Assembly: GCA_021205185.1 (NCBI GenBank)
Contig: JAJPYB010000009.1
Location: forward strand, 62,001-126,000
From: Ruminococcus sp.
GTDB taxonomy: Bacteria > Bacillota > Clostridia > Oscillospirales > Ruminococcaceae
DNA: 64,000 bases
Direction: 5' to 3'
Shown here: positions 21,682 to 38,329 of the stretch, piece by piece
How the letters are laid out: each line of letters opens with the position of its first letter
Position numbering within the stretch: position 1 is the stretch's first letter
The notes under the pieces: generated by a model
Told to the model about the DNA's origin: nothing
What the model saw: only the letters and a program-made list of their open reading frames with translations
The model's database searches: none
Position numbers and translations under genes: made by a program

Positions 21682-22323
21682 ATGCTTGTCAGAAAAAAGA
21701 AAAAGCACTTGAAATTAAAGATAATTATTTTATGCTTTATAGTTTTTGCAATTATTTTGCTTATTGCTTTTGATAGCCTTGTAAAATCAAGAACAAAAGA
21801 AATTGCAATTGTAAAAAGTGAAAGCTATGCTGAAAGCGTTGTAACAAGCTCTGTGAGTGAGTGTATGAGCGAATGCGACGGATTTGAATTTGTAAGCAAG
21901 CAATACAGCGGCGACAAAATAACAGCTATTGAGGTAAATTCCAACGAGGTAAACGCATTCAAGCAGGTGCTGACTGAAACGATAAACGATAAGCTTAGCG
22001 ATACAAATAACGCAAGCTATAAAATAAATCTGGCGGCTGTGCTTTCAAGCAACCTTTTTGGCAAAATCGGTCCTGGCGTTAGTATTTATTTTCAAAACGA
22101 GGGGAGCGTTGATCTGAACATTACCAGCGACTTTTCCTCAGCAGGAATAAATCAAACTATACATAGAATTTATGCGACTATAAGCCTTGATATTTTAGCT
22201 GTTACTCCGTCGGGCAGCTATAGCGTTCCGTTCAGTACCGAATATGTGATAAGTGAAACGGTTGTAATCGGCGACATTCCGCAAGCTTATGCAACAATTA
22301 CTGACGAAGAAAAAATTACTTAA
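21682..22323 (+). CDS. yunB: Sporulation protein YunB
   Basis: A 213-aa protein with a very basic N-terminus, one membrane anchor (about residues 12-33) and an extracytoplasmic domain. The pattern 'IAIVKSESYAESVVTSSVSE', 'IEVNSNEVNAFKQ' and 'GPGVSIYFQNEGSVDLNITSDFSSAGINQT' is that of YunB, a mother-cell (sigma-E) sporulation protein whose loss reduces spore formation in Bacillus; exact function unknown. The ORF is slightly shorter than in Bacillus. The ribosome-binding site GGAGGG is perfect, but lies in the inverted repeat noted above. Confidence 0.87.
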   Translation: MLVRKKKKHLKLKIIILCFIVFAIILLIAFDSLVKSRTKEIAIVKSESYAESVVTSSVSECMSECDGFEFVSKQYSGDKITAIEVNSNEVNAFKQVLTETINDKLSDTNNASYKINLAAVLSSNLFGKIGPGVSIYFQNEGSVDLNITSDFSSAGINQTIHRIYATISLDILAVTPSGSYSVPFSTEYVISETVVIGDIPQAYATITDEEKIT

Positions 22324-22367: not shown

Positions 22368-24377
<2,010 letters not shown>

Positions 24378-35947: not shown

Positions 35948-35976
35948 TTGACAAATAGGAAAAAATCGGGTACAAT
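35948..35976 (+). promoter_or_regulatory. Strong SigA promoter for the tyrosine recombinase
   Basis: Consensus TTGACA, 17-bp spacer, TACAAT, 65 nt before the recombinase ATG. Start of transcription would fall just upstream of the inverted repeat at 35990. Confidence 0.82.
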
Positions 35977-35989
35977 TTAGATATAGTAA

Positions 35990-36021
35990 AATATTCACTA
36001 AATAAAAATTTAGTGAATATT
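35990..36021. repeat. Perfect 14-bp inverted repeat before the recombinase
   Basis: AATATTCACTAAAT and ATTTAGTGAATATT are exact inverted arms around AAAA (32 bp in all), between the promoter and the ribosome-binding site. There is no U-tract, so it is not a normal terminator. It could be an operator, an mRNA hairpin, or a recombinase-binding site. Confidence 0.85.
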
Positions 36022-36041
36022 CGGGGAGTGGTGAAACGACA

Positions 36042-37043
36042 ATGAAAGCTGAATATATGGAAGATTGCCCGGAATATCTAAAAGACTACCTTTTAAACCT
36101 CAGACTTATTCGTGACAGAGCTGACAGGACCGAAGAAGCTTATTATATTGACCTGCGTACATTTTTGCGTTATTTAAAGATAAAAAACAAGGCTGTTGAC
36201 AAGGATACTCCTTTTGAAGAAATAACTATCAAGGACGTTCCTTTTTCATACATCGAAAACTTTACGCTTTTTGACGCGTACGAGTATATGAACTATTTAA
36301 AAGAGGTTCGTGAAAATGAAACTGCAACCAGAGCCAGAAAGACCTCTGCACTTAAGCAATTCTATGCGTTTCTTTGTAATAAGGCAAAGCTTTTAGAATA
36401 CAATCCGCTTGATAATTTAGAGCTTCCAAAGGTTAAAAATAAGCTGCCAAAATACCTGTCATTAGAGCAATCTATCGAGCTTTTGAAAAATATTGATTCA
36501 CGATATAAAGAACGGGATTTTTGTATAATTTGCTTGTTCTTGAATTGCGGAATGCGTCTGAGCGAGCTTGTAGGTCTTAATCTGAGCGATTACAGCAAAG
36601 ACAACCGTACATTAAGATTATTTGGTAAAGGTTCAAAAGAACGTATAATTTATTTAAACGATGCTTGTGTTGAAGCGATTGAAAATTATCTAAAAGTTCG
36701 ACCACAAAACGCCAAGGATCCTGATGCTATGTTTATTTCAATGCAGCTTAAAAGAATTGATAAGCGACGTGTTCAAGCAATAGTTGAAGAAATGCTTCAA
36801 AAAGCCGGGCTTTCAAATTTAGGAATTACAACTCATAAGCTCAGACATACATCAGCAACGCTAATGTATCAGCACGGCGGAGTTGATCCGCTTGTTTTAA
36901 AGGAGGTTTTAGGACACAAAAGCATTGCAACTACTGAGATTTATACGCATTTATCAAATGACAATTTAAAGAATGCAGCTGAAGCGAATCCTTTAGCACA
37001 TCAAAAAATTGAAAATAATAAAGAAAATAATAAAGATGAATAA
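36042..37043 (+). CDS. Tyrosine recombinase, XerC/XerD-like
   Basis: A 333-aa site-specific recombinase. An N-terminal SAM-like core-binding domain (residues ~10-115) precedes the catalytic domain with all active residues: Arg in 'NCGMRLSELVGL', Lys in 'FGKGSKERI', HxxR in 'THKLRHTSAT', His in 'LGHKSIATT' and the nucleophile Tyr in 'EIYTHLS'. The tail is Asn/Glu/Lys-rich. It is alone between two terminators with a strong promoter and an unusual palindrome. Dimer resolution at dif is the default role; whether this is the Xer of the organism is not decidable here. Confidence 0.9.
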   Translation: MKAEYMEDCPEYLKDYLLNLRLIRDRADRTEEAYYIDLRTFLRYLKIKNKAVDKDTPFEEITIKDVPFSYIENFTLFDAYEYMNYLKEVRENETATRARKTSALKQFYAFLCNKAKLLEYNPLDNLELPKVKNKLPKYLSLEQSIELLKNIDSRYKERDFCIICLFLNCGMRLSELVGLNLSDYSKDNRTLRLFGKGSKERIIYLNDACVEAIENYLKVRPQNAKDPDAMFISMQLKRIDKRRVQAIVEEMLQKAGLSNLGITTHKLRHTSATLMYQHGGVDPLVLKEVLGHKSIATTEIYTHLSNDNLKNAAEANPLAHQKIENNKENNKDE

Positions 37044-37047
37044 TAAA

Positions 37048-37083
37048 AAATGCCCTGTGCGAGAAAATACACACAGGGCATTT
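37048..37083. terminator. Bidirectional terminator between recombinase and U32 gene
   Basis: A 12-bp perfect stem AAATGCCCTGTG / CACAGGGCATTT; the minus strand has TTTTTTATTATT after it, so it mainly serves the thyX-U32 operon. Confidence 0.88.
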
Positions 37084-37087
37084 AAAT

Positions 37088-38329
37088 TTATTCACTTTTC
37101 ATTCTTATAATCGAACCGCTTTCAAAATCCAGATCACAGTCGAGTGAAAATTTCATTGTAGCGTGGTTAGCTGTATCAATTTCATTGTCATTTTCGTCAT
37201 AAATTTTCTCGGCAAAAATTTTAACAGGTTCCCTGCTGGGAGATAAAATTTCAAGCTCGTCTCCCCTGTTGAATTTGTTTCGCTGAGTTCCGTACAGTCT
37301 GCCGTTCTGGCATTTGTCTACTACTGCAACGACGTCATATTCTCTGATATAACCATTGTCGCCGTAATATTGATATTCGCCGTTTTTGTCGTTTGGATGA
37401 CTAAAGAAAAAGCCTGTACAGTAGGCTCTGTGACTCACCTTGAAAACCTCGTCAAAAATCCATTTTGGACATCCTTCCATTGTATTGTGTTCAAGATAAT
37501 AGTCAACAGCCATTCTATAAGCGTTTGTGACAACAGAAACATAGTAAGAGGATTTGGCTCTGCCTTCAATTTTAAGGCTATAAACGCCAGCTTCTGCAAG
37601 CTTGTCAATGTGTTCAATCATGCACATATCCTTTGCGTTTAAAATGTATGTCCCCTTTTCGTCTTCAAATATAGGGAAATACTGACCCTCACGGTTTTCC
37701 TCCATCAGGTGGTAACCCCACCTGCAAGGCTGAGCGCATTCTCCCCTGTTTGCGTCTCTATTAACTAAATATTGCGAAAGCAAGCATCTGCCTGAAAAGC
37801 TAACGCACATTGCACCATGCACAAAGCATTCAATATCAAGCTCTTCAGGGGTTTTAGCTCTTATCTCAGCTATTTCGTCAATTGAAAGCTCTCTTGCTAA
37901 AACAACACGCTTAGCGCCCATATTGTAAAACTCGTTTGCTGTAACGTAGTTTACAATTCCAGCCTGCGTTGATATGTGAATTTCCATATCCGGAGAATAC
38001 TTTTTAACAAGCGACAGCAAGCCGATATCATTGACAATAACAGCATCAACGCCTGAATAGTCGGCTGTTCTCATAAACTCTTCAAAATGCGGTATTTCGT
38101 CGTTTCTGGGCAATGTATTGCAGGTCAGATATACTTTAACGCCTTTTTTATGCGATCGCTCAACGGCGTTTTTAAGCTCATCTGGTGCAAAGTTTGCAGG
38201 ACCTGCTCTCATTCCAAACATTTGACCGCCAAGATATATAGCGTCTGCTCCAAAATTAAGAGCAGCGCCAAGTCGCTCTTCATCACCGACTGGCGCTAAT
38301 ACTTCTAAAGCTTTTTTGCTCTTAAACAT
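37088..38329 (-). CDS. U32 family peptidase-like protein (TrhP-type)
   Basis: A 413-aa protein of the U32 family. The signature 'CFVHGAMCVSFSGRCLLSQ' and 'RGECAQPCRWGY' carries the Cys residues that probably bind an iron-sulfur cluster, within a TIM-barrel-like N-terminal domain ('LEVLAPVGDEERLGAALNFGADAIYLGG'). Members such as TrhP hydroxylate tRNA uridine-34 using prephenate; others were once called collagenases. This one resembles the tRNA hydroxylation branch found next to mltG in Firmicutes. It is the last gene of the thyX operon, 9 nt after mltG. Confidence 0.87.
   Translation of the reverse strand: MFKSKKALEVLAPVGDEERLGAALNFGADAIYLGGQMFGMRAGPANFAPDELKNAVERSHKKGVKVYLTCNTLPRNDEIPHFEEFMRTADYSGVDAVIVNDIGLLSLVKKYSPDMEIHISTQAGIVNYVTANEFYNMGAKRVVLARELSIDEIAEIRAKTPEELDIECFVHGAMCVSFSGRCLLSQYLVNRDANRGECAQPCRWGYHLMEENREGQYFPIFEDEKGTYILNAKDMCMIEHIDKLAEAGVYSLKIEGRAKSSYYVSVVTNAYRMAVDYYLEHNTMEGCPKWIFDEVFKVSHRAYCTGFFFSHPNDKNGEYQYYGDNGYIREYDVVAVVDKCQNGRLYGTQRNKFNRGDELEILSPSREPVKIFAEKIYDENDNEIDTANHATMKFSLDCDLDFESGSIIRMKSE

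Follow-up and report, generated by a model that had tools for sequence, protein, structure and literature searches.

What purpose is served by a perfect palindrome that lies shortly upstream of a tyrosine recombinase gene? For the window, i.e. the whole stretch of 64,000 nucleotides of Ruminococcus sp. DNA analyzed here, a preliminary description had offered autoregulation by the recombinase, a repressor operator, or a crossover-type site. The last option is the one that the data support, among them the terminus position and the conservation of the repeat; a pure operator is disfavored because the site in other genera lies far from the gene, yet at the terminus. As judged from sequence comparison, the palindrome very probably serves as the chromosomal dif of an Xer system with a single recombinase. 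This reading is supported by conservation, terminus position, the polarity of a neighboring motif, and the junctions left by phages, and by the fact that a classical dif is absent. The locus comprises the following features:

35948..35976, + strand: recombinase promoter, TTGACA-N17-TACAAT, conserved in the genus
35990..36021, + strand: dif-like site, a 32-bp palindrome, assigned by conservation, uniqueness, and terminus position
35990-36002, + strand: putative left 13-bp arm, delimited by symmetry and dif analogy
36003-36008, + strand: putative 6-bp centre TAAAAA, delimited likewise
36009-36021, + strand: putative right 13-bp arm, delimited likewise
36022..36028, + strand: CGGGGAG box adjoining the palindrome (family consensus AGGGGAG), which polarises the site
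36042..37043, + strand: single Xer-type tyrosine recombinase of 333 aa, with the R-K-H-R-H-Y catalytic residues present
36000..37050, no strand: replication terminus, where GC skew and coding strand change from + to -

The palindrome, AATATTCACTAAAT-AAAA-ATTTAGTGAATATT, was confirmed letter for letter as the perfect 14-bp inverted repeat described before, with 14 perfect pairs around AAAA. No other repeat in the window combines perfect 14-bp arms with a loop of 3-8; the preliminary description had called it too perfect for chance, and about 0.0025 such repeats are expected in the window. Its symmetry and the analogy with dif suggest the 13+6+13 division. A search for further copies showed that, with up to 3 mismatches allowed, the 1.75-Mb genome contains no other, which eliminates the operator of a regulon. 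A terminator had rightly been dismissed, since the hairpin is not followed by a T-run.

The palindrome starts 13 bases 3' of the promoter -10, and the recombinase ATG at 36042 follows 20 bases past it. The earlier placement between a promoter and a ribosome-binding site holds for the promoter TTGACA-N17-TACAAT only; the GGGGAG taken for the ribosome-binding site belongs to the conserved site and is retained even without a following gene, which eliminates this role, and several congeners possess a separate Shine-Dalgarno sequence further downstream. In the genus, the dif-like site extends from about +6 to about +37 of the recombinase transcript as predicted, so that recombinase bound there would dampen its own gene; autoregulation may thus be a by-product in this genus.

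The recombinase aligns with invariant R172, K196, H265, R268, H292, and Y301, and its nearest named relative retrieved, from Ruminococcus sp. U.9_3, is 98% identical. The closest curated model is XerC, with 203 bits at a cut-off of 335; the XerD model gives 193 bits (cut-off 330) and the XerS model 146 bits (cut-off 267), and the curated XerA cut-off is not passed either. The recombinases of the relatives likewise fail the XerS cut-off. XerH (PDB 5jk0) is among the weaker solved-structure matches, with 66.6 bits and below XerA and XerD. A second strong Xer protein was sought in the source genome and none was found, so that the XerC/XerD pair is absent there; the same holds for several complete relatives. 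The genome encodes an FtsK with a gamma domain, as do all nine genomes tested. Traits of the single-recombinase kind that are present here are thus a sole Xer-type recombinase whose catalytic residues are intact, in a genome that lacks the XerC/XerD pair, a palindromic non-coding site of about 30 bp, present once per chromosome at the terminus, and FtsK-gamma. The canonical Firmicutes dif was found in 0/61 relatives and nowhere else in the source genome, in a search that detected it in 90/300 genomes of the phylum as positive control; the statement that the arms differ from the Firmicutes dif consensus was thus correct. With canonical dif missing in all 61 relatives and the XerC and XerD equivalog cut-offs failed, the system falls outside canonical XerCD/dif.

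Conservation beside orthologues, on which the preliminary description had let its case depend, was examined, and the repeat is kept. A close copy, with 0-1 mismatch relative to the pattern, adjoins the recombinase gene in 15/15 congeners, one in each; two congeners show weak 2-mismatch places elsewhere as well, and one has its gene divided between contigs. The palindrome is also conserved in most of the order. Within family and order, the arm sequences vary while their complementarity is kept; they read AATATTCACTAAAT, AAGTTTCACTAAAT, AACTTTCACTAAAT, AATTTCGCTAAAT, AATTATACAAAAT, and AATTGCACCAAAT, among others, and are always accompanied by the mirrored sequence. Among 19 sequences, picked partly for symmetry so that the count is supportive and not independent, two-sided arm changes amount to 44 cells vs 14.1 in shuffles, and G-T pairs to 4-5/266. 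Paired arm changes with few G-T pairs are better explained by DNA that binds two identical protein subunits than by a hairpin in RNA. When the relatives were searched with a covariance model whose training palindromes came from the vicinity of the recombinase gene, 50/61 gave a match at a loose threshold, 46 of them convincing and mostly single-copy. Site and recombinase occur together in 46 relatives, the gene alone in 8, neither in 7, and the site alone in none; hence 46/54 recombinase-bearing relatives have the site, 8/54 have none detectable by this model, and it is missing from all 7 that lack the recombinase, most of which are incomplete genomes. Recombinase and site are coinherited. The two need not be adjacent: in G044, the site lies 6.5 kb from the recombinase gene, and in G039, G058, and others they are on different contigs, with the site nevertheless at the skew switch. 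Two distant families of the phylum possess the same gene-site pair near mid-chromosome.

Deviating sites were noted besides. In G046, a second palindrome copy without the G box (L218 5105, C49) is located downstream of an aspartokinase-like gene, and the main site of this genome is likewise near an aspartokinase-like gene; the second copy is possibly contamination or a moved site. In L211-L214 of family f89, the arms read AATTATACGAAAT and share the word TATACGAA with the loxP arms, in opposite inner-outer order, an overlap that is probably due to chance.

The location of the site was derived from strand asymmetry. GC skew in the window amounts to +0.16 on the left side of the site and to -0.09 on the right side, and genes switch from the + to the - strand at 37.05 kb. 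Among genomes with enough flanking sequence, the skew is + left and - right of the site in 32/38, the switch not being shown over 10 kb in the remaining 6/38; control windows show it in 1/20 (matched, same genomes) and 3/58 (other samples). In three near-complete chromosomes the site coincides with the global skew switch: at 1.539 of 3.009 Mb (51%) in G044 and at 2.049 of 3.757 Mb (55%) in G034, both starting with dnaA, and at a dnaA-site distance of 1.20 Mb in the 2.58-Mb contig of G018, about 47% round. In G058, with the gene on another contig, the skew switches 33 bp from the site.

The right edge of the site carries a further conserved element. With sites oriented by their A-rich centre alone, GGG is found within 9 nt on the right side in 29/35 genera and on the left side in 1/35 (background 6%). 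AGGGGAG or a close variant follows almost directly after the right arm, also where the gene does not follow, and this conserved box on one side makes the symmetric site polar. The same word occurs in the surroundings of the sites, where it is the most terminus-pointing of 9,387 7-mers within 10 kb, with 110 copies toward the site vs 4 away (one genome per genus), and 51 toward and none away within the genus; it is 2.8x denser near sites than in far windows. The polarity partly tracks gene strand and G skew, and the toward/away skew of 27-44 fold compares with about 1.6-8 fold for other 5G+2A words, which argues against mere G-skew. Around the terminus, 116/131 copies lie inside ORFs, and ATG after the word is no commoner than random, so that a ribosome-binding site was dismissed here as well. 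By its polarity and by analogy with KOPS and SRS, AGGGGAG is probably the FtsK guide sequence of this group. In the window alone its polarity is not exceptional; all nine copies, spanning 22100-62379, point to the site:

22100..22106, also at 22902 and 30841, + strand: AGGGGAG toward the site, from a motif scan
37261..37267, also at 37741, 43047, 50222, 54118, and 62373, - strand: AGGGGAG toward the site, from a motif scan

The box abutting the site points away from it and is therefore not simply the last loading site.

Mobile elements were encountered at the site as well. A Zot gene is present in 8/61 relatives and lies within 5 kb of the site in 4 of them (about 4e-8 under random placement); elements with Zot and rolling-circle Rep are located at the site in G025, G016, and G019, and in G035 only Zot was confirmed. 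Three viral contigs that carry the site beside a chromosomal recombinase contain inovirus-like prophages with Zot and rolling-circle Rep (L193 2129-7467, L196 1-5980, and L233 3306-7688). The element ends are direct repeats that share one arm and the centre and then diverge in G025, G016, and G035, and that share one arm before diverging in L196. Such hybrid att repeats match what Xer-mediated integration would leave, and Zot, Rep, and an att pair sharing one arm at a dif-like site, all of which are seen here, are the hallmarks of Xer-using inoviruses (IMEX). In L196 and G016, the end repeat extends outward too, which suggests tandem copies. Matches of the pattern in viral contigs are mostly tailed-phage contigs bearing palindromes. 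In L232, L239, L243, L240, and L234, a perfect AATTATACAAAAT-type palindrome has portal and terminase-like genes in its vicinity, and may either mimic dif or have a regulatory role in the phage. The low-GC phage contigs L195, L197, L198, and L200 have a common longer palindrome, ACATTTCGCTAAAT-N4-ATTTAGCGAAATGT, between phage genes.

Other explanations of the palindrome have to be weighed against these data. That it controls only the adjacent promoter, through autoregulation by the recombinase or through a dimeric repressor, is suggested by its position right behind the -10 of a consensus promoter in the genus. This is very unlikely, however, since other genera have their site at a distance from the gene or on a separate contig, yet still as a single copy at the terminus, conservation persists at sites that have no promoter linked to them, one copy per genome provides no regulon, and the phage junctions fall inside the site. 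A hairpin at the mRNA 5' end that stabilises the transcript or tunes translation would explain the folding observed there (z = -4.1), but has a negligible probability: the symmetry is retained with almost no G-U intermediates, and the site is often outside the gene transcript, e.g. 6.5 kb away in G044 or upstream of the TTGACA box in L040. The unlinked sites and the scarcity of G-U pairs led to the rejection of an RNA element. It is extremely unlikely that the locus is an integration hotspot of mobile elements and not a host dimer-resolution site; inovirus-like elements at the site in 4/61 genomes and three viral contigs would agree with this, but in most genomes the site is free of any element, and its terminus position and coinheritance with the recombinase make the phages look like users.

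A dif site used by a pair, with this XerC-like protein on one arm and XerD on the other, is somewhat better founded and still unlikely. XerC is the closest curated model, albeit below cut-off, and an XerD-like gene of at least 295 bits is present in 11/61 relatives, about a fifth of the order members, among them cases near the gene in question; the arms are identical, however, and unlike XerC and XerD arms, and no second Xer of comparable strength is present in the source genome or in several complete relatives. Given these XerD-like genes, the Xer system may not be single-recombinase everywhere in the order. Bona fide XerD-like genes near the single-type recombinase gene were noted in L233 (1-894), G044 (C1:1546380-1547240), and G059 (C11:56272-57135), which are possible two-system intermediates, and a weaker extra XerD-like gene is found in five congeners. 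The site arms of G055 (C17:79748-79779), ATTACATAAAAT/GTTTTATGTAAT, recall the canonical XerD arm; this site is about 1.1 kb from an XerD-like gene, and the other recombinase is on another contig.

For the dif site of a single-recombinase system, the following course of events is conceivable. Each of the two identical arms would be occupied by one monomer of the adjacent recombinase. FtsK would follow the terminus-pointing AGGGGAG repeats along the DNA, pair the sister sites at the septum, and activate strand exchange, which, with cleavage points presumably bordering the 6-bp centre, would resolve a chromosome dimer to monomers. The symmetric site might owe its direction to the asymmetric A-rich centre together with the one-sided AGGGGAG box. 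Inovirus-like phages would integrate via the same site and, presumably, the host enzyme. We tentatively consider it possible that an AGGGGAG guide built into one edge of a symmetric dif breaks its symmetry, in an undescribed system that extends through the order and into at least two further families; the box could, for example, be the docking place of FtsK gamma and decide which recombinase monomer cuts first.

Known single-recombinase systems are XerS/difSL, XerH/difH, XerA, and XerL (PMC5357621, PMC9765430). Reviews treat single-recombinase dimer resolution as an exception (XerS, XerH, XerA; XerL in 2022), and a large dif survey of 2011 drew on genomes with XerCD orthologues (PMC3025954). 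In the open literature (subscription journals lay outside the scope), no account of the system, the site, or AGGGGAG as an FtsK motif was found, and the system of this order is apparently undescribed so far, within a kind already known. It shares with dif/XerL of Legionellales (PMC9765430) a single recombinase, terminus location, a mobile element at the site, and long uninterrupted arms (10 and 12 bp in dif/XerL), but that system belongs to another phylum, and xerL is more than 400 kb from dif in L. pneumophila, whereas the gene is usually adjacent here. XerS/difSL is likewise a Firmicutes system with a single recombinase whose gene adjoins the site; the arms are imperfect and the centre measures 11 bp in difSL, vs near-perfect arms and a 4-6-bp centre here, and these differences together with the XerS score place the present system outside it. 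XerH/difH of Helicobacter and Campylobacter (PMC5357621, PDB 5jk0) also combines a single recombinase with a site near the gene, but in a different phylum, and membership was rejected as XerH scores below XerA and XerD. Canonical Firmicutes dif/XerCD resembles the system in its short palindromic terminus site, a 6-bp centre flanked by AA/TT, and FtsK-gamma, and differs in having two different arms in place of two equal ones and in its arm sequences. Like KOPS of E. coli, SRS of B. subtilis, and the A-rich motif of L. lactis (PMC5357621), AGGGGAG is short, terminus-polarised, and densest near dif; unlike these, it has its own sequence and one copy that abuts the dif-like site pointing away. CTXphi-type Xer-using inoviruses are comparable as Zot and rolling-circle Rep phages at the host dif with an att pair sharing an arm, but the hosts here are Clostridia and appear to have one recombinase and a palindromic site.

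Single-recombinase resolution across an order of abundant gut bacteria without canonical dif would fill a gap. The site would serve as a replication-terminus marker for draft genomes, and would explain where the inoviruses of these hosts integrate. It would furthermore offer a simple symmetric Xer system for asking what FtsK needs at dif, and if the box is a guide fused to dif, the ordering of the two strand exchanges by FtsK would become testable with one protein and one palindrome.
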